Assembly: GCA_949358305.1 (NCBI GenBank)
Contig: OX442319.1
Span: forward strand, 14,198,001 to 14,262,000
Direction: 5' to 3'
Source: Strigamia acuminata
Taxonomy: Eukaryota > Arthropoda > Chilopoda > Geophilomorpha > Linotaeniidae
Length of the DNA: 64,000 bases
In this document: one piece after another, positions 44,211 through 63,300 of the stretch
How the letters are laid out: the number at the start of each line of letters is the position of its first letter
Numbering within the stretch: the stretch's first letter is position 1
Notes under the pieces: generated by a model
What the model saw: only the letters and a program-made list of their open reading frames with translations
What the model was told of the DNA's origin: nothing
Databases searched by the model: none
Made by a program: the position numbers and the translations under genes

Positions 44211-44569
44211 AATGAGATGCAAAATAAAATTACTTTATAAAAAGGCAAATTGCTGGCAAATTTTTATAGGTTTGGACTTAGAATAAAAAAGGGGGCTGGT
44301 GGGTGGGTATACAGAATACAGATTCTCTCATTTTATTTGTTCTTGCATTAAATAGAAAGCAAAGAAATTTAAAAACAAATTTTATTCAAAGAATAGTGTA
44401 GAAATTATTAATTTTGTTTCCAAAATTACACAAAATGTAATACCGGTAACTACACTAAATGCATATAAAATTTTTAATTACCCAAAAACAAAAAATATAA
44501 AACAAAATACATAAAATATTACAACTATTCAAAACTAAGTAAACTGTTTTAAAATACAAATATTAACAA

Positions 44570-45440
44570 ATAGCGACGCTGGAGTAGCTCCCTCCCTTCC
44601 TTCCTTCCTTCTTTGACTTGTGTGGTCCCCAGAAAAACCAGAATTTGCGCAAATGAAACCAACTCAGTTCCCAGGTAGGGATTCCTTTTGCGTACGGTAT
44701 TTATCGCGGTTTGCCTGTAAAAAAATCGTCTATATCGCGATCCTGCTCTCTGGTGTAAAAATAGGTGGAATTACGAAATCTAAAATAATAAGCGTTATTT
44801 TAACAAAAATAAAATTTAAAATCCGCGGGAAGTTAATTAATTGTTGGGTTGGTACATTATTAGGTACGGTAGTAGTGCTAAACTTTTGGCCAAAAACAAA
44901 AAATATAAAACGAATTACATAAAATATTACAACTATATAAAACTAAGTAAACTGTTTTAATACGTATTAATTACGAGTTGGCATAAACGTTGGATGATAT
45001 CGGTCCAGTCGCGGCCAAATTCACTAACCAAGTCAAAGATGCAAACGGTGAAGTTTAAGCTGACTATCAACAAAATAACTTTTAAAAGCTTTCCGAGCCG
45101 ATGAATATTCATGTATTTAGGTTGTCTGTCGAAATCGAACAACACGACAGCGTGCCGCATTTAATTACGGAAACAATGCCGTACTTTTGCAAAAATGCGG
45201 TATTCTTGATGTTTCAGCCGCGACTACTATTCGAGGGTGGCTACAATTTTTAATTACACAAAAACAAAGAATATAAAACAAATTACATAAAATATTACAA
45301 CTATATAAAACTAAGTAAACTGTTTTAAAATACAAATATTAACAAATAGCGACGCTGGAGTAGCTCCTGAGGTCTTCCTTCCTTCCGTCTGTTGGTCGAC
45401 TCGGGCATCCATGCGTCGAATCTAGAAAGAAATATATAAA
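44570..45440 (-). pseudogene. Unknown duplicated gene family, copy B
   Basis: Three minus-strand blocks match copies A and C: 45420-45340 (TDGRKEDLRSYS, after a tttctag acceptor, then a stop); 45122-44957 (signal-like start MNIHRLGKLLKVILLIVSLN, then DIIQRLCQLVINTY, stop); and about 44720-44580 (GIPTWELSWFHLRKFWFFWG running into a copy of the GRK...LRSYS segment). Frames are interrupted between blocks, so this copy is probably broken. The 3' AT-rich tail containing caaatattaacaaatagcga is duplicated within the copy at 44.5 and 45.3 kb. Confidence 0.35.
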
Positions 45441-45663
45441 CTCTTAAACAGAAGTAAAAGTGCTTTATATTAAACTGCTAATGACTTAAAATAATAACTA
45501 AACTTTAAAAACACTCATTATTAAATAAAACAAATATTGTGCCAGCCTCGGTCAATGCCAGCCGACTATTTGCCAGCCTTTTATTTTTCAGCCTTTTTTA
45601 ATATTTTAAAATACAGTATAAAAATAAGTTAATTAATGAAATGATTATTTAATATTTGCCTGA

Positions 45664-45803
45664 ACTTTAATTTCTAGCCCTTTATTATTCTAGCCCTTTA
45701 TTATTCTAGCCCTTTATTATTCTAGCCCTTTATTATTCTAGCCCTTTATTATTCTAGCCCTTTATTATTTTAGCCCTTTATTATTCTAGCCCTTTATTAT
45801 TAA
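45664..45803. repeat. 16-bp minisatellite TAGCCCTTTATTATTC
   Basis: About eight almost perfect copies lie downstream of the RING ORF stop. The same motif appears inverted on the other side of the ORF as AAAGGGC-type units. Confidence 0.9.
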
Positions 45804-45860
45804 ATGAAATAATTAATTTTAATTTGCCAGCCCTAACATTTTCAGCCCTTTTTCCCCTTA

Positions 45861-48556: not shown

Positions 48557-48968
48557 ATGCATTATTTCCCAAACGATCCAAACCCGCCCGACACCAACGA
48601 AATGCTATTTTACTACGATTCCCACCCTCGCCATTATTCCCCGTACGGCCCGGCACATCCCGCTGCCCCGCACTTCACCGCAGCGCATCACCAGGAGCCG
48701 CCGTGCACCGTGAGCCAGTTGGGCTGCGCGACAGAGCCTGGTGCGCCGCATCGCTGAATTCTTTGTTTAGTTCGTCGCGGACTCCAGTTTTCGACGACTG
48801 GAGTTGCGGGAGTCCCGTGAATTCCGTGAACGGGTTTGTAACCCCGGTTTCGCGTTTGGCGGGGTCCACGAGTACTTTGCGCAGCCGCAATATCAACATT
48901 CGCTCGATTCGGGTGTCGATGGATGCGGGCAACAGTCGCCCGATTCGAGCGACGGAGTTTTATATTAA
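48557..48968 (+). pseudogene. Truncated GC-rich gene fragment, unidentified (transcription-factor-like composition)
   Basis: A GC-rich block stands out from AT-rich flanks. From ATG 48557 the frame reads MHYFPNDPNPPDTNEMLFYY, then a His/Pro/Tyr-rich segment to 48709, where ACC/GTGAGC is a good donor. A 61-bp intron ends tttgtttag at 48770. The next block is open in two frames: one gives SRTPVFDDWSCGSPVNSVNG in its first half, the other gives FGGVHEYFAQPQYQHSLDSG in its second half. This suggests a single-base shift, or that only one frame is right. Coding stops abruptly at about 48955 where a copy of the duplicated ttatattaaactgctaat repeat begins and supplies the stop. I do not recognise the family. 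Confidence 0.4.
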
Positions 48969-49079
48969 ACTGCTAATAACTTAAAATAATAACTAAACTT
49001 TAAAAACACTCATTACTAACTAATATGGTAGATAGCTTATGTGATTGTGTTTGTGATTGCGTTCCCTAAGTATTGCCTA

Positions 49080-49530
49080 ATTCTTTTCCTTAAAATCAAA
49101 GCTCGGGCCCCAGAAGTATAAATATCGTCGGATTAGATGTAAATTAATCTCCCAGGCAGGTATACCATTGGCATAAGCTATTTGTCATTCATTGCATTCA
49201 CGAAAGCTCTTATGTGTAAATCTTCCGTTCGCGTGTAGTAATAAGTCGAATTTCGCCACCTAAAAAAATAATCAATAGTTTGACAAAAATAAAATTTGAA
49301 ATCAATTACTGTATACAGTAATTACTTACTTGAATAATTCCGAAAGAATCGAGACGGTACGTATGAATGACGAGTTGGCAAAAACGTTGTACTTGTATGG
49401 TATCTGCCCTGTCGCAGCAGACATCACTACATAAGTCGTAGATATAGTCAGTGGAGTAGCTCCTGAGGTCTTCCCTCCTTCCGTCCGTTAGTTGACACAG
49501 GCATCCATGCGTCGAATCTAGAAAGAAAGT
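49080..49530 (-). pseudogene. Unknown duplicated gene family, copy C
   Basis: Block 1 (about 49518-49331) follows a tttctag acceptor and is open without break: STHGCLCQLTDGRREDLRSY, then DTIQVQRFCQLVIHTYRLDS, ending at CAA/GTAAGT. Block 2 (about 49261-49100) follows ttttttag and reads WRNSTYYYTRTEDLHIRAF, then after a frame shift GIPAWEINLHLIRRYLYFWG. Block 1 and block 2 are phase-incompatible, and block 2 needs a shift near AATGACAAATAG, so the copy is probably a pseudogene. Cysteines are frequent in block 1. Confidence 0.4.
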
Positions 49531-49631
49531 AATAAATTCATTGTAAAATATATAAACTCTTAAACAGAAGTAAAAGTGGTTTATATTAAACTGCTAATGA
49601 CTTAAAACAATAACTAAACTTTAAAAACACT

Positions 49632-49791
49632 AGGTGCATTCAAAAATTCTAAAACGTATGCAAAACTCGTTTTGTGTTTGAACGTGACGTCACTCCCATT
49701 TAATAACATTCCCATGTTATTCAATGGGAATGACGTCACGTGCAAACACGAAACGAGTTTTGCATACGTTTTAGAGTTTTTGAATGCACCT
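49632..49791. mobile_element. 160-bp palindromic MITE with 3-bp ACT target duplication
   Basis: AGGTGCATTCAAAAA...TTTTTGAATGCACCT: the two halves are inverted copies over about 75 bp each. Related loci at 45.5 and 49.0 kb read aaaacactcatt without it; here the flanks are aaaacACT and ACTcatt, giving a clean 3-bp duplication. Each arm contains a perfect TGACGTCA (49685-49692 and 49731-49738). Confidence 0.85.
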
Positions 49792-49849
49792 ACTCATTAC
49801 TAAATAAAACTGTAGAACAAACGCGAGGTAAAATAATTTAAAACTAAAC

Positions 49850-53425: not shown

Positions 53426-53923
53426 TGTTACGTGGCTAAATGGGGATTGATTTAGTCCTACGTGACATGAAGTTAATCAAGAATGACACAGGGTTTTATA
53501 TGTAAAATGCCTATTGGCTTTATTATTCAAAGTCGGACATTTACTCATGTAAATGTTCGGTCAACAGCTCTTATTACATTTGTTCATTTATTGATCTTAA
53601 AATATAAATCATTCAAATAAGTAAATAACTAAATAAGGATGATGCTGTTGTCAATTCAATTCAATTCAGGAAACCTAGTCCTGCCTGACCGTCAACCGGC
53701 TGGCAGTAGTAGGTGAAGGTAAAAGTTTGAGAATCAAAAGAGATCTGAGCTCTCTGGCTTAATCAACTCACTAAGTAAACTCCTATTCCCCCTATCAACT
53801 AAGTTGAATGGTCTGTGCATCTAATTAGGTGCACAGCGCCGTCTAGTGAGAATTCATTGCATTAAATGCCTAAACAGAGCGAGCAGAGCCAGCCGATACA
53901 CGGTACGGCTCTACCGCGTAACA
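53426..53923 (-). repeat. 3' LTR of the gypsy element
   Basis: 498 bp, ends TGTTACG and CGTAACA. It reads the same as the 5' LTR by eye across its length. It contains TTTATT motifs (AATAAA on the element strand) usable for polyadenylation. The outer edge touches the 1.56-kb inverted-repeat element. Confidence 0.95.
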
Positions 53924-53938
53924 GCCCCCCCCTTTAAT
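53924..53938 (-). other. Polypurine tract for plus-strand priming
   Basis: On the element strand AAATTAAAGGGGGGGGC directly precedes the 3' LTR. It is a textbook position and composition for the primer of second-strand synthesis. Confidence 0.8.
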
Positions 53939-54380: not shown

Positions 54381-55649
54381 TCATGGCTCCCCAAACTGCA
54401 TTAAGTCACGGTCTTCAACGTATCTTCCAATGAAGTAGAGTATGGTTGGGCCACAGCTGTCATTATCCAATTGGTGCATACGTGGCGGGTCCCAACGTAT
54501 GAATTTGTTTGGAAACTTTACTCCTGCATCCATCAACGAGTATCTTAAAGATTCCCACTTTGGATATGTGCGCTCTATTGGTCCGCTTGGGTCATAAAGC
54601 ACGTATTGGGTTGGCTTTTTCCGCCAATCCACTATGAAAAGCTGCCAATGCTCTTCAATAGGAACTGGAAACACCCAAATCTTCTTTTGAGCACTTGGAA
54701 GTCTCTTCATTAGCCAATAGATCGCTTCCTTTCGTTTAGCTGGGTCCACCATTTTGAAGACCCACTCAGATTGAATTGGTGCCAATATGGGATATCGTTC
54801 TTCTAACAGTTGGAGGTAGTGATCAACGACGCTGTCATACGTCCAGCTCTGTCGTCCCGGCGTTAGGTCGCCTAATGCTGCCATCTGATAGTTCATGACT
54901 TTAATCGGCGGACAACCTACGGCGTCGAATGCTAAGTCATATTTTGGCGCATTACTATAATCTAATGCAAGTCCGAGAGCCTGGACCTGTCGTGCAGCGT
55001 CCAACTCCACACGGTATACCCGTATAGGAGTGGGAAATACTACACTAGGGTCCTGGAAGGACTCTCTTCTCGCTAGGGCGATGGCTTTTAAAATGTTTTT
55101 TCTTATCTTCGCCTCCTGGATCAGCAAAGCATTCGCCCCTGTTCTCCACAACTGGTAGTCGGGCAATCCCATCACTCCTTTTAATTTCCTGGCTCTAATG
55201 GCGTTGACCATATTCCGGTGCTCCATTCGCAAATCATTTAATCGGCGTTTGTTTCGATCAACGGTGTGACGCATTTCTTCTTCCCGGATTCTTTTCGATT
55301 GCTCGTCAAACACTTTCTTCTTTTGTGCTTTCTTATCTCGTTTCAATTGTCGATTCTTACGACGACGACGCAATAAGCCTTCTTCACCCTTTGTTAATGG
55401 TCCTGCATATTTCTTTTTGTCTTCCTCCGCCTTTTGTTTTCCTTCTGTAAACGGGCGTGGGCAGTTAACCAATTCGTCCAAAGTTTTACTTGTGCTCGGC
55501 TTATTTGCTAAATAAATTTCCAAGTCATCGCCTTTCTTAAGTTGACGTTCCAAAAGATCGCCCACTTGCATCGAGCAAACCGAATCCGCATCGCTGTCAC
55601 TGTCACTACGCACATCCATCCGATCAAATTTGCTTGCCATTTCGTCCAT
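54381..55649 (-). CDS. Third ORF of the gypsy element: Ulp1/C48-like cysteine protease
   Basis: 422 codons from an ATG, starting 415 bp after the pol stop. Residues 1-60 are acidic; 85-160 form a very basic coiled-coil region. The C-terminal 100 residues carry the signature of Ulp1/SENP (C48) peptidases: His334 in EEHWQLFIVDW, Asp353 in LYDPSG, Gln393 in MHQL and Cys399 in DNDSCGP, in the right order and spacing for the His-Asp-Gln-Cys site. Ulp1 enzymes cleave SUMO or related modifiers, or process polyproteins in some viruses and Polintons. A splice acceptor-like atatattag lies 7 bp before the ATG, so it could be made from a spliced RNA like a retroviral env. It has no membrane segment, so it is not an envelope. 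All catalytic residues are present. Confidence 0.75.
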   Translation of the reverse strand: MDEMASKFDRMDVRSDSDSDADSVCSMQVGDLLERQLKKGDDLEIYLANKPSTSKTLDELVNCPRPFTEGKQKAEEDKKKYAGPLTKGEEGLLRRRRKNRQLKRDKKAQKKKVFDEQSKRIREEEMRHTVDRNKRRLNDLRMEHRNMVNAIRARKLKGVMGLPDYQLWRTGANALLIQEAKIRKNILKAIALARRESFQDPSVVFPTPIRVYRVELDAARQVQALGLALDYSNAPKYDLAFDAVGCPPIKVMNYQMAALGDLTPGRQSWTYDSVVDHYLQLLEERYPILAPIQSEWVFKMVDPAKRKEAIYWLMKRLPSAQKKIWVFPVPIEEHWQLFIVDWRKKPTQYVLYDPSGPIERTYPKWESLRYSLMDAGVKFPNKFIRWDPPRMHQLDNDSCGPTILYFIGRYVEDRDLMQFGEP

Positions 55650-56064
55650 TCGGATTCTAATATATTGTTTGAAAAGAAAATAAAATAAATTAATTCATTG
55701 ATTCAAAATTTTCACAAAATTATTCCAATTTCCATTCATTATTTCATTTAACATTTCATGTTACACTAAATTACACTAAATTTAACAATTCTTCAACTAA
55801 TTAGTCACTTGATAATATATGCACACACTAAAATTTCATTTCGAAGATTTAACACAATTATTTAAGCCTAAATTTCCATTTCGCGATGTTATTTTCTCAC
55901 AAAATTCGCGATAGATTCGTTTCGTTTTTAAGCTATTTGTTCGCCAAATTCGTTCAAAATCCACTCTTTTCACTTACGGAATCACACACAAATCAACTGC
56001 TGCTGTTATTAATGCTTTAGGTTTCTTTGAGTCACACAGTAAACCCGGTTCGTCTCAGAAAACC

Positions 56065-59000
56065 TTAACACAATCCACTGTAGTCACGACGAGCCTGTTT
56101 GCGAAGGCGACGTGACCGGAAACTCTCGATTTCAGGTGGCGACGCGTCATCGACTGCGTCAGCGACACCTGTCGGCGGTTTTCGCAATTGATTTTCTTCG
56201 TTTTTCCGTTCGTCTTCGTTTTGCCATCTTTCCATAATTTCTTTCGGTCCATAGAGCGCTTTTAATCGCTCTTTTTCGCTTGGAATTGGGAAATTTGACA
56301 CTTTTATTGTATTTTCTTCAGGTTCAAAGAGTGTTTTTAACGAAATTTGATCGTCATCGCTAATGAATCGTTCTTTAGCGATCGGAATTGGCGAAATTGA
56401 CGTGTTTTCTTCAATTTCTTGTTGTTTTTCACTCTGTGTTGCAGTTTCATCAGCAAATGTGACTTTTTTAGCTGTCAATTCTTCTAATATCTCCGCTGGA
56501 ATTTCTTCTCTGGGTTTATACGGTTTTAATCGTTCAATGTTAACAATATCTGTTTTCTTTCCATTTGAACTTCTAATTTCGTAGTCATTTGGCGCGGTTC
56601 TTCTTACTATTTCGAATGGGCCTGAGAATTGTGGTAGGAGTTTTTCACTTAACCCAACTTTTCTATTGGGTGTTTTGAGATAAACTAATTCTCCTGGATC
56701 AAATTCCACATGAACTCGGCCTTGATCGAATCTTTTTCTGCTTTTTTCTCCTTGCCATTCCAACCTTTCATTTGCTATTTTCCTAGCTTCTCTGATGAAT
56801 TTCGAGGTTCGCAAGGTGAATTCTTTCTGAGGTAAGTTGAGGTTTACGTCCACGTTCAAATCAACTTCATATCCTTTCAAAAGATAATAAGGTGTATATC
56901 CTGTCGTTTCATGCACACCGGTATTATATGAGAAAAGCAAAAATGGCAAAAAATCATCCCAGTCCCTCTGGTCCTTATCAACATAAATCTGCAACATTTT
57001 TGCAAACGTCGCATTAAATCTTTCTGTAAGGCCATTGGTCCTTGGATGGTACCCTGAAGTGGTTTTGTGTAGGGCTTTAAACATATTTGATACTTCTTCC
57101 ACCATTTTGTTTCTGTATTCTGTGCCTCTATCGCTCAGGATTTCTCTCGGACTGCCTTCCTTCAACATTAACTCATAAAGTAAGGTTCTAGCTGCTTCCA
57201 ATGCTGTTGATGCTGGAGCTGCTCTAGCAATCACTGTCCGCGACAAATAATCTGTCATTACGAAAACATACTTGTTGCCCTTGTCGGAGGTCGGAAAACT
57301 TCCCAGTGTATCGATTCCAATCCTCTCGAAAGGCTTAGATATCGTAGACCACGGCTGCATTAAACCTTTTGGCGCTGTCGTCATTGATTTCGAGCTCGCG
57401 CAATGTGGACAAGAAAGTACGTAATTTCTAACGTCTTTATATATCCGGGGCCAGAAGAATCTTGTTCTCATTCTCTTCCATGTTTTGTTTAGGCCCAAGT
57501 GAGCACCCGTCAGTCCGTCATGCATTTCCTGAAGTACGTCAGTTTTTAGATGCTGCGGAACATATAACAGATTTACTTCCGTGTCTAGGGAATTCAAAGA
57601 ATTTTTCTTCCTAAACAACACATTGTCGAGAAGGACGAACTGCTTTAGAGGACGTCTTCTCTTCTTCGGAAGTTGCTCTACTTGATTCATTGCGGTGATC
57701 AATTCCAGTAGCTTCTTGTCCTTACGCTGCTCAGCAGGAAGGTCGAGCTGTCCGAGTAAAAGTGAGGGAACTATTTCATTTTCTTCCTCGCTTAAATCTT
57801 CTGGAATTCTGCTCAAGGCGTCGGCATCTTTGTGCGCTTTTCCGCTCTTGTAGATCACATCGAAATCAAAGTCTACTAGCTGTAGGCTCCATCTAGCTAG
57901 TCTGCCATTGGGATTTTTGACTGATTTTAGCCATTGGAGTGCCGAATGGTCTGTAATTATCTGGAACTTCTTACCATACAGATAAGGTCGGTACTTTTCA
58001 ATTCCAAACAGAATGGCCAGACATTCCCTTTCTGTGGCTGTGTAATTCTGTTCTGCTTGGCTGAGAAGTCTGCTGGCGTAAGCTATCACATGTTCTTGTT
58101 TGTTTATCTTCTGTTTCAACACTGCTCCAAGACCATATGCGCTCGCGTCTGTCGATACCATGAAGGGTTCTTCAAAATTAGGGTGCGCAAGCACTGGCAC
58201 GGTGATAAGGGCGGTCCTCAATGTCTTGAAGGCCTTGTCATGAGGTGGGCCCCAATCGAATTTCTCGTCCTTCTTCGTCAAATTGACTAAGGGCTTGGAT
58301 ATGTCCGCAAAACCTGGAATGAACTTCCTGTAATACGAACAGAGCCCTATGAATCCTCGAAGAAGTTTGAGGTTAGTAGGAACTGGAAACTTAGCTACGG
58401 ATTCCAGATTCCTAGGGTCTGGTGATATACCCTCAGAGTCCACGACATGTCCCAAATACTTGATGGTGTTCGTCCCAAATGTGCACTTGCTCAACTTCAC
58501 CTTTAAGTTAGATTGTCTAAGCTTGTCGAAAACGTTGTCTAGATCTTTCAAATGCTGATCGAATGTTTTAGAGAAAATGATAAGGTCGTCAATGTACGCT
58601 ATACAAACTTTGCCCAGGAGGTTGCCTAAAACTTTGTTCATTAGCTTTTGAAAAGCTGCTGGACTATTGCATAATCCCATTCCTAGGACGTTAAACTCAA
58701 AATGTCCGCTTGAAGTGGTAAACGCTGTTTTTTCACGATCTTGTTCATCTATTTCGACTTGATAATATCCTTGAATAAGATCCATCATGGAGAAGAACTG
58801 TGCACCTGCCAGCTGATCTAAAGTGTCATCTATTCTTGGCAACGGGTACACCATTTTCTTTGTTATCGCATTCAAACGTCTCCAATCAACGCAAAATCTC
58901 CACTTACCATCTCTTTTCTTTATTAGCAATACAGGCGCGCTCCAGGGACTTTCTGATTCCCTTATCACTCCCATATCAAGCAATTTCTTTGTTTCCTCTG

Positions 59001-60008
59001 CTTCGACTTCTTTTTCCTTCATAGAACGACGATACGGTTGCAAATGTATTGGTTCATGGTCTCCAGTATCGATTTTATGCTTATACACTTGAACTCTTCC
59101 CAAATCCTTGTCAGAAACAGCAAATCTGTCTTGATTCTTTTGAAGAAGTTGTCGCATTTGCTCTTGTTGGTCTTTATTCATTTTGTCTTTTGCTATTGAG
59201 GAGTCAAAGTCAAAACAGTGTACCTGTTTTTCATCAAACACCCCAACATCAACCACATAATAAGCTTTTGCGATTGCTGACTTCTCCTTCAGAAAGACTG
59301 TCTTCTTGGTTGGGTTAGCCACTCGAATGATGCCTTTTCCGTTCTTGAAATCTGTTAAAGTTTTACAACCTATCACAGCAAATCTATCAGTAACATTATG
59401 CAATGGTTGTACAAACATGTCCAATGTTATTGCTTTATTCAAATAGATGGGAACAATGCACTCATGCATTGGTGGAATTGTGATGTTCTTCATTACCCTC
59501 GCAACATAATTCTGATCAACAAAAGTTTTATTCATTGGAAATGACACTTCCTTTCCACTAGTTCGGCCCACAAAGATTTTTTGTTTGTCGTAGTCTAATA
59601 CGCACTTCGCGAACAGCATGAATGGGTCACTTAGCAGTAGTTCATAATGAAATCCTTTAACAATCAGGACCTCGATCCTGTATGTTAATTCACCAATTGT
59701 AATGTTCATCTTGGCTTTTCCTATTGGAGTCACAAGTTCTCCGCTTACCCCTTGTAATCGTATATTTGGGCTTGGCGGGTATTTCAACTGTAAAGCTTCA
59801 GCAAGCTCTTCGCTGATAACATTGCGTTTTCCTCCAGTGTCCATAACTGCCTTGACTTCCATGTTGTTCACTATTACTGGAATTTCCAATAGAGATTCTG
59901 AAATGTTCATTTTGACTACGATTATCTTCTCTCTTCTATTCTTTCTTTTCTTCTTTGGATGACAACATCTTCCTTGTTGATGGTGACATCTTCTTTGTGG
60001 CCGACCCA
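56065..60008 (-). CDS. pol: Gypsy pol polyprotein (protease, RT, RNase H, integrase)
   Basis: About 1314 codons open to a stop at 56065. The frame is open from about 60048, overlaps the end of gag and lies in the -1 frame, so Pol is probably made by a -1 ribosomal shift; the first ATG in frame is 33 codons further on. Order: aspartic protease with DTG at about 57-59; reverse transcriptase about 330-510 with YIDD at 472-475; RNase H about 615-735 (D621, E660, D687); integrase with an HHCC zinc region about 830-870 and D900, D960, E996; then GPF motif near 1120 and a charged tail. All catalytic residues that I checked are present and no stop interrupts them, so the element may be competent. Confidence 0.95.
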
Positions 60009-61340
60009 CTAGTTTTCCTCTTCTTGTTGACCTTGTTGTGGGTTCTGCTTAGGATTAGGGTTCGTTTTACCGCCCCCTTGTGTCCTTTTCTTCTTAAACC
60101 ACCTTTTGTTGTTTGGGTTCCCTCTATTTTCTTGAGATTGTTGCTCCTGTGGCGCTGATGTGTTATGCTCACAACCATAACGATGCCAACATCCACATGA
60201 ACGCGTTGTTGTCGGACTGCTATTTGACCGCTGTCTACCTCTATTATATCTACCTCTAAAGTTCTGTCCGCGCTGCGATGCTGGAATATACCACTCGCCT
60301 TGTATGAATAATGGAACCGATTGTTGTGGCTCTACTGACTCACTCACGAGCTTTTGCTGTTTTAATTTGATATTTTCAGCTAATAACTCGGCGTAGCTTA
60401 CTGGGGATCCCCCTGTTCCAGACAGTATACCTGTTGTCGTAGGGTTCACCTTTTCATCTACAACTTTTTTGAACATTGTGAGCAGTAGATCCGCTGGTTC
60501 TTCTGTTTTGTGACTTTCATACAATTTAAGTCTCTGTTCCATTTCTTCTAACGTCGATGGAAATACTGTTATCATCATCTTCTGCATTGCAGGCTTCAAA
60601 CCTTGGTAAACATAATTTATTTTCTGAGTTTCAGTCATTTCTGGTAGAATAAACGCACATTCGGCCAAGACTTTCTTCATGAAGGCATCTGCTGTACCCT
60701 CTTTGTGTTTCATGAAGTGGAGAGTATTGTAAACATTTTCTTGGCTTCTTCTAAATTTTTTCTCGATCTGTGGTTTCCAATCCGTCCATTTCCATGTCGG
60801 ATTCTTCTTTAGTTGTTCCACAAACCATGCCAATCCATCAGTCTTTAAGGCTAATGCTAGATGTTTTACTCTCTCATCATCTGTTCCTATTGTAGCTTCA
60901 TATGCCACTAGCCATTGGTCAATGTTGCCTTTTTCTGTATCGTAAGTGACGACTGGTCGCTTCTGCACTACCAAACTCTTCAGTAAGTCGGTCAATACGT
61001 CCGTTGGAGTCTGTGATGATGTCATTTTTGGAAAATTTGGTTCAATTGGTATTGGAACTGGTTTAGTCTTTACTGGTGTAAATGTCTTTATTATTTCTTC
61101 TAAACCTTTTTGTGGAATTAATTTTATTAACGGAGTAGCGAAATCCAACTTCTGTAGGATTGATTGAGGTTGAGATCGGACTTCTTTATCTTCCTTCTGA
61201 GGTTCAGTGTCAGATTCAGATCCAGTGTTCCTTTTCTTTCTAGTAGCGATAAATTTCAAATCCGGTTCGGGCAATTCCCAATTTTGCAAATCTTGAAGAT
61301 TATCCGTATTGAACTGCGACAATTTTACTGGCTTATCCAC
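60009..61340 (-). CDS. gag: Gypsy gag
   Basis: The frame is open from about 61364 to a TAG at 60011-60009 but has no ATG before 61025. The first 105 codons may therefore start at the GTG at 61340, enter by splicing (an acceptor-like ggcttcag precedes), or be untranslated. Residues about 130-300 resemble a gag capsid (FMKHKEGTADAFMKKVLAEC). The C-terminus is basic and RG-rich (RGQNFRGRYNRGRQRS). It holds an odd cysteine group CGCWHRYGCEH, not the usual CX2CX4HX4C knuckle. The stop overlaps the -1 pol frame. Confidence 0.82.
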   Translation of the reverse strand: MDKPVKLSQFNTDNLQDLQNWELPEPDLKFIATRKKRNTGSESDTEPQKEDKEVRSQPQSILQKLDFATPLIKLIPQKGLEEIIKTFTPVKTKPVPIPIEPNFPKMTSSQTPTDVLTDLLKSLVVQKRPVVTYDTEKGNIDQWLVAYEATIGTDDERVKHLALALKTDGLAWFVEQLKKNPTWKWTDWKPQIEKKFRRSQENVYNTLHFMKHKEGTADAFMKKVLAECAFILPEMTETQKINYVYQGLKPAMQKMMITVFPSTLEEMEQRLKLYESHKTEEPADLLLTMFKKVVDEKVNPTTTGILSGTGGSPVSYAELLAENIKLKQQKLVSESVEPQQSVPLFIQGEWYIPASQRGQNFRGRYNRGRQRSNSSPTTTRSCGCWHRYGCEHNTSAPQEQQSQENRGNPNNKRWFKKKRTQGGGKTNPNPKQNPQQGQQEEEN

Positions 61341-61870
61341 ACTGAAGCCTTTATATTGCGCTTTTTATCACTTTCACTAGCACTGATTCGCTTTCTAAAC
61401 ACTGAATACACTAACACGAATTCATTACCTGAAAACTTAAAGTGTTATTAGCATATAATACATAAATATTACACTCAAAAGTACAAAGAAAATAATCCAT
61501 CAATAACATTTCAAAACAATTTTTCAATTCCTATAAATTCACAAAATTTCCTGTAAATAAATATCAAAATTAGTATTTATACACTATATATTTTATTTAT
61601 TCTAAATATAACAATTGTAAATCAATTTATTAATCCCTAATAAACAATTAAACTCTATTTTTATTTCCAAAATGCAAATTATTTCACACAATGACATTAA
61701 ATATTCAAGCTGTGACTTCACTTGTTTTTACCAACTCTGAGTCATTCAAGATAATTGCTATAAAATCAGCAATTTTCAAGTTTTTATTTCTAGATTTTTA
61801 TTAAATTATTTTGGTAATTTTAATCCAATTTTAATGGGATTTTAATTCTAAACGGGCTACAATCGAGACC

Positions 61871-61882
61871 GCATCTCCACCA
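61871..61882 (-). other. Primer binding site, tRNA-Ala type
   Basis: Two bases after the 5' LTR the element strand reads TGGTGGAGATGC, complementary to the CCA-tailed 3' end of eukaryotic tRNA-Ala (...GCATCTCCACCA). The similarity continues imperfectly into the T-arm. The tRNA match is from memory of the tRNA family. Confidence 0.65.
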
Positions 61883-61884
61883 GT

Positions 61885-62382
61885 TGTTACGTGGCTAAAT
61901 GGGGATTGATTTAGTCCTACGTGACATGAAGTTAATCAAGAATGACACAGGGTTTTATATGTAAAATGCCTATTGGCTTTATTATTCAAAGTCGGACATT
62001 TACTCATGTAAATGTTCGGTCAACAGCTCTTATTACATTTGTTCATTTATTGATCTTAAAATATAAATCATTCAAATAAGTAAATAACTAAATAAGGATG
62101 ATGCTGTTGTCAATTCAATTCAATTCAGGAAACCTAGTCCTGCCTGACCGTCAACCGGCTGGCAGTAGTAGGTGAAGGTAAAAGTTTGAGAATCAAAAGA
62201 GATCTGAGCTCTCTGGCTTAATCAACTCACTAAGTAAACTCCTATTCCCCCTATCAACTAAGTTGAATGGTCTGTGCATCTAATTAGGTGCACAGCGCCG
62301 TCTAGTGAGAATTCATTGCATTAAATGCCTAAACAGAGCGAGCAGAGCCAGCCGATACACGGTACGGCTCTACCGCGTAACA
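61885..62382 (-). repeat. 5' LTR of the gypsy element
   Basis: 498 bp, same sequence as the 3' LTR as far as I can read. Its outer 50 bp now supply a substitute C-terminus of 17 residues and a stop to the interrupted MID1IP1-like ORF. Confidence 0.95.
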
Positions 62383-62970
62383 ATATCTACTCGTCAAATA
62401 GTCCGCGGACTCGGTCAGCTTGTGCAACGAGTGAAAAAGTCCCGACAAATGTTCCCGAAACGTTCCCGCAATGGCCGCAGAGTGCTCGTCCGATTCCGAC
62501 AACACGGAATCGAACTCCGAGCTAGATTCCAACTCGAGGCCGGAGTCCGAGCACGTCGAAACGGTCGACATGCGCCGCGCATGAATCGTCGCTTCCATCT
62601 CTCTGCTCGCTTTGCTCCCATTGGCTGCGCCCCAAATCAACTCCGTCTTCACCGCATTCAACATGTTATAGAAACTGTACAGATCCGAATTAACGACCGC
62701 GCTGGGAATCACAGTGGCGGAGCTCTCCCCGTCGCTCGACATATCGAGAAGCCGGCTGGGAACCATGATGACGTCATCCATATTGTTGACAGCCTGCACG
62801 AAGCGATCCATGCCGCTCAGGATGGACTGCTGCGAGAAATCGCTCGGCTCATGGTCCCTCGCGCTGTTTTTGCGCTTGTTATGGTTTAAATCGGTGAGGA
62901 TTCCTTTGCTTAGACCGGAAAGGAACGTGTCGATGCCCGTGGCCTTTGAATTTCGTCGAGATATTTCCAT
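62329..62970 (-). pseudogene. MID1IP1: MID1IP1/Spot14-like gene, 3' end replaced by LTR sequence
   Basis: ATG at 62970, 196 native codons to the target site, then 17 codons read from the LTR before a stop. Family motifs: ILSGMDRFVQAVNNMDDVIM at about 50-69, DLYSFYNMLNAVKTELIWG near 96-114, and GLFHSLHKLTESADYLTSRY at the end, all typical of Spot14/MID1IP1 (PF07084). These proteins regulate lipogenesis through acetyl-CoA carboxylase, and MID1IP1 binds the MID1 ubiquitin ligase. An upstream non-coding exon probably ends at 63057 (TCAG/GTAAGT), with an acceptor just before the ATG. The uninterrupted protein would be 205 residues. The change removes only nine residues, so the product might still work, but the LTR poly(A) signals would end the transcript. 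Confidence 0.85.
62383..62386. other. Target site duplication ATAT (second copy at 51863-51866)
   Basis: The four bases after the 5' LTR equal the four bases before the 1.56-kb element on the other side. The interrupted coding frame is restored when one copy is removed, which is independent support for this duplication. Confidence 0.85.
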
Positions 62971-62972
62971 AT

Positions 62973-63300
62973 CTTGCTTTTTTTTGTGGAATTTTAAATA
63001 AAAAATGGCGGATTAGATGGTTTTTGTGTTCTTTCTGCGTTTGATAAAATACTTACCTGATTTTTGTGGGTTTGGATTAGGTTTTGTTGGTCATTCGTTA
63101 GCTGGGTTTTGTGCAAAGTGAGCGGAGTGTCGTTCGAGAGAGATGAGGTGTTACGTCATACATCAGGCGAGTTGTGGGGCGATTCGCTAATTGGTCGATG
63201 GGATGACGCGTGTTGCCGCCTTTTCTTGGGGACACGTGATCTGTTCGTGGGTTCTATTTTCGTGTTTTCGTTGAAAGTTGATGCAAGGTTTTTTTTATTT
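62973..63300 (-). promoter_or_regulatory. 5' UTR exon, intron and promoter region of the MID1IP1-like gene
   Basis: On the minus strand TCAG/GTAAGT at 63057 is a strong donor, followed by an 84-bp intron ending aagcaag just before the ATG. Upstream is GC-richer sequence with a TGACGTAA-like site near 63150. The transcription start is not placed. Confidence 0.45.

Follow-up and report, generated by a model that had tools for sequence, protein, structure and literature searches.

The window, by which we mean the whole stretch of 64,000 nt that was analysed, holds a gypsy element flanked by two direct LTRs, which match at 499 of 499 bases with one common flanking base counted in (Table 1). The gag and pol genes use different reading frames, and a third open reading frame, ORF3, follows on the same strand. 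The initial annotation, made from the sequence alone, had placed such a sense ORF downstream of pol and within the LTRs, and this arrangement is indeed found. The order protease, RT, RNase H and integrase in pol, together with the LTRs, identifies a Ty3/Gypsy LTR retrotransposon. The sequence TGGTGGAGATGCGG next to the 5' LTR is presumably the complement of the 3' end of tRNA-Ala. At the position of a target-site duplication the flanks of the window copy read ATAT and ATAG, that is, with one mismatch in four.

Table 1 Features of the element and its third ORF in the window
Feature	Position	Strand	Remark
5' LTR (TGTTACG...CGTAACA)	61885..62382	-	same as 3' LTR
Probable primer-binding site TGGTGGAGATGCGG	61869..61882	-	sequence adjoining 5' LTR
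gag frame	60009..61340	-	Ty3 capsid-like stretch, residues 151-269
pol	56065..60009	-	aspartic protease, RT, RNase H, integrase with GPF motif (Pfam)
AG acceptor-like site, first exon base 55656	55656..55658	-	7 nt before ORF3 ATG, preceded by T-rich tract
ORF3	54381..55649	-	422 aa, 422 codons, between pol and 3' LTR
ORF3 residues 87-157, predicted basic long helix	55179..55391	-	AlphaFold2 model, pLDDT mostly >70
ORF3 residues 258-422, C48 (Ulp1/SENP) catalytic domain, C-terminal end absent in window copy	54384..54878	-	
His334 codon, putatively catalytic; Trp335 next	54648..54650	-	H 20/21, W 21/21
Asp353 codon, putatively catalytic	54591..54593	-	21/21
Gln393 codon	54471..54473	-	21/21
Cys399 codon, putatively catalytic	54453..54455	-	21/21
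Polypurine tract	53924..53935	-	adjoins 3' LTR
3' LTR	53426..53923	-	same as 5' LTR

The capsid match of gag reaches 19.4 bits, under the curated Pfam cut-off of 29.1. The gag frame as listed (60009-61364, minus strand) starts with GTG and has its first Met at residue 106; either gag is shorter or it has a spliced start. Among the 120 listed of 2543 relatives of pol, identities range from 31 to 50%, and those named by organism come from arachnids or a crayfish. ORF3 is embedded in a stop-free run of 437 codons, whereas the longest run was 233 codons when 1000 Markov-1 sequences modelled on the pol-LTR interval were read in six frames. A Spot_14 (MID1IP1-like) coding frame (62329-63012, minus strand) has the element at its 3' end, and the open frame continues into the 5' LTR. 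The window also holds genes with ARID, FHA and Spot_14 domains, as fits an animal, and, at 44466-45815 and 48925-49792, a 16-bp minisatellite, dispersed repeats of 86-126 nt and a 79-nt inverted repeat with arms that are 94% complementary.

What kind of protein does ORF3 encode? Taken by itself, the window sequence makes a suggestive case for a C48 protease. In Pfam, the whole window ORF3 matches no family at E<=1, C48 included; its C-terminal part has C48 as the top family (E 0.045; 14.0 bits, where the cut-off is 20.7), followed by Vaccinia I7 (C57) at E 0.12-0.19. In a search of PDB sequences with the whole ORF3, the best 14 of 20 matches are SENP or Ulp1 (E 0.0019-0.04), and the C-terminal part reaches E 0.00069. 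A reversed ORF3, used as a control, yielded no C48 and no Pfam match; its PDB hits to designed TIM barrels, with E-values as low as 9.8e-8, are spurious, and single-sequence phmmer E-values near 1e-3 are for this reason not relied on. The local alignment with a SENP1 fragment scores 94, and none of 5000 shuffles exceeds 50; for a SENP2 fragment the score is 95 and the highest shuffle 55. The loose catalytic motif by itself appears in 58 of 200000 shuffles.

The decisive evidence is a family profile built from 21 ORF3s of the host genome, which share 31-100% identity. Its match to human SENP1 has E 6.6e-11; the alignment spans the entire catalytic domain (positions 258-441) and brings the H, D, Q and C residues into register. 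Among the 18 PDB sequences that match the profile at E<=10, 17 are SENP1/2/3/5, Ulp1 or XopD and none is adenain, the C5 type. Pfam C48 is found at E<=1 in 16 of the 21 members, at best with 1.2e-4, and is absent at this threshold from the other five. His334, Asp353, Gln393 and Cys399 stand where they had first been named and follow the order and spacing of C48 enzymes. The Asp, Gln, Cys and Trp335 are present in every member, the His and Trp269 in all but one each: L040 has a Ser in place of the catalytic His, and L041 has a gap at Trp269. By analogy, Gln393 would form the oxyanion hole, while Trp269 and Trp335 are, we assume, the tryptophans of the SUMO diglycine tunnel. Two structure predictions, run on the single sequence with no alignment, give low confidence to the C48 part. 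A fold search with the poor C-terminal model returned 277 matches at E<=10. None of these reached E<=0.001, the top one was a bacterial MCF-like effector (0.28), and the best 50 included no SENP; since the model is poor, the search is uninformative. The profile match and a SENP1-fragment score above all shuffles thus bear out the initial proposal of a Ulp1/C48 protease as the third ORF of a gypsy element.

In the host genome (237.5 Mb), ORF3 has at least 100 matches in several families, of which 87 lack an internal stop; with 99 of 426 candidates scored, this count is a lower bound, and a second ORF3 query adds six further places. Twenty loci, picked across the families, were fetched. Their ORF3s are 421-480 aa long, and in 19 of them pol sequence, partial in some, lies upstream, ending 292-947 nt before ORF3. 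LTR pairs are visible within the fetched stretch at six loci (L022, L023, L025, L029, L032 and L041) and, among five loci with extended upstream sequence, at L034, L038 and L031, not at L028 and L033. At all nine loci with a pair, ORF3 sits between the LTRs; they belong to families A and B, apart from a single locus of C and a single one of D. At the remaining loci the pair may be absent or lie beyond the fetched stretch. Close copies of ORF3 and of the integrase travel together: for 42 of 45 ORF3s with >=90% identity, an integrase is listed within 4 kb upstream. Among the matches listed, ORF3 follows within 4 kb downstream for 42 of 51 integrases at >=90% identity, and within 4 kb for 23 of 87 at 80-84%. 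The absence of the ORF from other copies, named at the outset as a sign of a private capture, is the opposite of what is observed: ORF3 is a recurrent part of a gypsy lineage.

At locus L040, together with 3 kb more upstream, no pol or gag match is better than E 1.5. It holds a solitary open ORF3-like frame of 462 aa (L040:6801-8186; C5:11346795-11348111) with 31% identity, in which Ser takes the place of the catalytic His. It is possibly a domesticated or decayed copy, and a BIR/RING (IAP-like) frame lies about 7.6 kb away.

The initial observation, stronger than first apparent as a feature of the lineage, is weaker for the window copy, which is not the intact ORF that was first described. 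It is truncated C-terminally; most of the near-identical copies examined run on for another 35 residues. In loci L014-L021 (n=8), ORF3 measures 422 aa in the window copy and its twin on C11 and 457 aa in the other six, with 23 and 58 residues, respectively, after the catalytic Cys. Relative to L023, the one copy compared, 68 nt are missing. The lost stretch aligns with the C-terminal end of the SENP1 catalytic domain, and because this end of the C48 domain is gone, ORF3 of the window copy is probably impaired.

Other copies have lost nearly all of ORF3. Downstream DNA was fetched for four of the 64 integrases at 80-84% identity that have no listed ORF3, and all four copies have long open pol frames of 1310-1360 codons. 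In three of them a remnant is left, consisting of only the last 44-78 codons of ORF3. As these remnants are 92-98% identical to the ORF3 of three different sub-families, ORF3 must have been deleted several times. The fourth copy has no remnant at E<=1e-3, and its flanking DNA is closely related to that of one of the other three. The large number of integrases that lack a listed ORF3, with four of 64 sampled, suggests that such copies multiply, the protein being either supplied in trans or optional; the four copies, in which ORF3 is deleted and the pol frame long and open, fit both. In cis, ORF3 appears to be dispensable, and its action may be in trans.

Selection on the protein was gauged by the Nei-Gojobori method in 18 pairs, which share sequences and are not independent; six are saturated and 12 measurable. 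In ten of the 12, dN/dS lies between 0.06 and 0.14, with similar values in the N-terminal (0.06-0.14) and C48 parts (0.06-0.16). The other two are L030/L031, at 0.39 with 1.42 in the N-terminal part (12 differences only), and window/L023, at 0.03 (9 differences only). Based on the ten low values, the ORF3 protein is under purifying selection within families. Considering both its homology and its history in the genome, we regard ORF3 as almost certainly a SENP1-type C48 homologue and a long-standing cargo of the element.

Between families, synonymous sites are saturated in both ORF3 and integrase, and dN of ORF3 is about 5-6 times that of the integrase (0.62 vs 0.10-0.13 for family A vs B). The sharpest case is L034 vs L038: the integrases are 98% identical (pS 0.31), whereas the ORF3s share 63% with saturated synonymous sites. 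At the DNA level, identity is 86.5% through gag-pol and about 65% in ORF3, and the step falls after pol. Since near-identical integrases here accompany ORF3s that are far apart, either ORF3 has been swapped between lineages, as the step after pol makes it look, or it diverges extremely fast. Over 19 sequences, two with partial integrases, ORF3 and integrase distances are correlated (Mantel r 0.61, 0 of 5000 permutations).

The N-terminal half of ORF3 has a character of its own. The basic coiled-coil half noted initially is reflected in the predicted long helix and in 29 K/R vs 12 D/E within residues 80-165. It was considered as a bZIP, an identity rejected for want of a Pfam match. A retroviral or errantiviral Env was rejected as well: the window ORF3 has no transmembrane segment, its highest 19-residue Kyte-Doolittle mean being 0.72.

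The gap of 415 nt between pol and ORF3 contains eight ATGs. The acceptor-like AG upstream of ORF3 ranks 18th among 679 AGs by a simple score. Eight of the 20 loci were examined for this feature: a T-rich tract with an AG also precedes ORF3 in L023, L025, L029, L031, L032 and L041 (families A and B), and is not evident in L034 and L038 (families C and D). Given the eight preceding ATGs and the acceptor-like AG that adjoins its own ATG, the ORF3 protein may well be made from a spliced subgenomic RNA.

Where did ORF3 come from? The host genome has 29 other C48 matches, of which 10 fetched loci were compared. Against the ORF3 profile, the SENP1 fragment scores 34.7 bits. L043, which does best among the other C48 stretches fetched, reaches 12.7, and a C48 frame with weak Mutator/MULE matches 3.1. 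With the SENP1 fragment pre-chosen as a best match and 10 of 29 loci compared, this only leans towards the capture of a cellular SENP-type gene.

Outside the host genome, word-based searches of 5.8 billion proteins gave nothing at E<=0.01 for the whole ORF3 (7997 candidates scored) and nothing at E<=10 for residues 225-422 (355 candidates). No viral contig matched pol, ORF3 or the alignments A1 and A2, and no genome contig matched ORF3. The pol alignment A1 found 13 loci among genome contigs, bacterial or symbiont records by title; they lack a C48 motif, and no match to ORF3 in them falls below E 1.7. A C48 motif is likewise missing from the 120 pol relatives listed, out of 2543, in which no match to ORF3 falls below E 1.2. 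Searches with NCBIfam and Rfam gave nothing useful. An SL1 sequence, looked for as a sign of a nematode host, is absent from the window with up to 3 mismatches allowed, and no exact copy occurs in the genome. Loci L001-L012 carry gypsy-type pol on contigs binned as bacterial, which presumably represent eukaryotic contamination.

With SENP1 and Ulp1, ORF3 shares the H-D-Q-C order, the HW pair, the upstream Trp and the catalytic domain from end to end. It differs from them in its N-terminal half, for which there is no match, in its place on a retrotransposon and, in the window copy, in the missing end of the domain. Gypsy elements with an accessory enzyme are a known kind, and the C48 cargo is what is unusual. 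For example, orchid gypsy elements with an AlkB-type m6A demethylase ORF have likewise kept the enzyme of an extra ORF through amplification; the enzyme is a different one, and in the main text of that report, as far as available, no Ulp1/C48 is named and 'ulp' and 'c48' occur 0 times (PMC9289625). The giant Burro gypsy elements of planarians also have extra domains from the ubiquitin/SUMO field, but these comprise SUMO-like and other domains in one polyprotein, within an internal region of up to 25 kb, and the accessible part of the report describes no SUMO protease (PMC6431247). An LTR element with a C48 ORF was not found in the searches made of open-access papers, and an earlier report in subscription journals or Repbase is possible.

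The enzyme family of ORF3 is well supported; its activity, substrate and role are what we infer. The product is probably an active SUMO isopeptidase. The best explanation overall appears to be a captured SENP1-like SUMO protease that serves the element as an accessory factor and whose most likely use is to counter SUMO-dependent silencing, and we would give this a probability of roughly 0.6.

SUMO-dependent silencing is one route by which animals repress transposons. In flies, SUMO and its ligase Su(var)2-10 have roles in piRNA-guided transposon silencing, as stated in the accessible text of PMC7676866. The basic helical N-terminal half would localise the ORF3 protein, probably to the nucleus, and the protein could take SUMO off host proteins that silence or restrict the element. 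As it would act in trans, copies without ORF3 could amplify as well. Such trans-acting relief of SUMO-dependent silencing is a tentative proposal, at somewhat less than even odds. Slightly more speculative is the wider picture of a gypsy lineage with a diffusible SUMO isopeptidase against the silencing machinery, a shared good that full copies supply to their deleted relatives. A host-facing, recombining cassette would predict both fast divergence of ORF3 and sharp differences despite near-same integrases. If this is true, a selected SUMO protease in an LTR element makes the arms race testable, and an LTR lineage can keep an accessory gene despite its loss in many copies. To our knowledge, counter-defence genes on retrotransposons have rarely been caught.

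Could the C48 fold be only a binding module? ORF3 would then be a nuclear regulator of RNA export or expression like CERV of C. elegans Cer1. In its favour, CERV is the third product of an animal gypsy element, made from a spliced RNA, nuclear and divergent between species (PMC10309623), and the N-terminal half of ORF3 is likewise basic and helical. CERV, however, has domains named H, M and G, and the export of genomic RNA depends on it; the available text does not present CERV as a C48 protein and mentions neither 'ulp' nor 'sumo' (PMC10309623). Moreover, the conservation of Asp, Gln and Cys in 21 of 21 and of His in 20 of 21 members, down to 31% identity, counts against a binding module, which needs none of these residues. 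We consider this role unlikely.

Two further readings retain a protease and appear more improbable still. In one, the substrate would not be SUMO; the enzyme would cleave ubiquitin, NEDD8 or a further protein of the ubiquitin-like kind, as the C48 family includes the NEDD8 protease SENP8. The PDB chains matched are, however, SENP1/2/3/5, Ulp1 and XopD, and both tryptophans of the presumed diglycine tunnel are kept. In the other, ORF3 would be an adenain-like Cys protease that processes the Gag or Pol of its own element. Clan CE proteases do mature virus proteins in adenoviruses and Vaccinia, and Vaccinia I7 is the second Pfam match. The processing of Gag, one of the two roles considered initially, nevertheless becomes less likely because pol has its own aspartic protease domain and the profile matches include SENP, Ulp1 and XopD and no adenain; the existence of copies that have lost ORF3 by deletion while their pol frame is long and open also speaks against it. 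Finally, a passive hitch-hiker, captured once from a host SENP gene and without function, would account for truncated and deleted ORF3s, but it is largely contradicted by the low dN/dS and by the retention of the catalytic residues across families whose synonymous sites are saturated, and is hardly credible.

Going back to the SUMO protease as accessory factor, the nearest printed parallel, judged from the accessible part of its description, is Ginger1, which also combines a gypsy-type integrase with a Ulp1 domain (PMC2836005). As a DNA transposon, Ginger1 has terminal inverted repeats, and its Ulp1 domain lies at the C-terminus of the transposase (PMC2836005), whereas the centipede element is an LTR element with RT and a separate C48 ORF. 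Its RT and RNase H and its direct terminal repeats led us to reject an identity as Ginger1. An element with an integrase followed by a C48 ORF could be a candidate for the kind of source from which Ulp1-bearing Ginger1 transposons arose. Mutator-like elements with Ulp1 domains are likewise transposon-borne carriers of C48, but again DNA transposons. The host genome seems to have such a Mutator-like element with C48 of its own: a 1075-aa frame is listed in six places (L047-L051 and C1:13498094-13498426), and the one of these that was scanned, in part, L047, shows matches to C48, to PHD just below the cut-off and, weakly, to a Mutator/MULE transposase.
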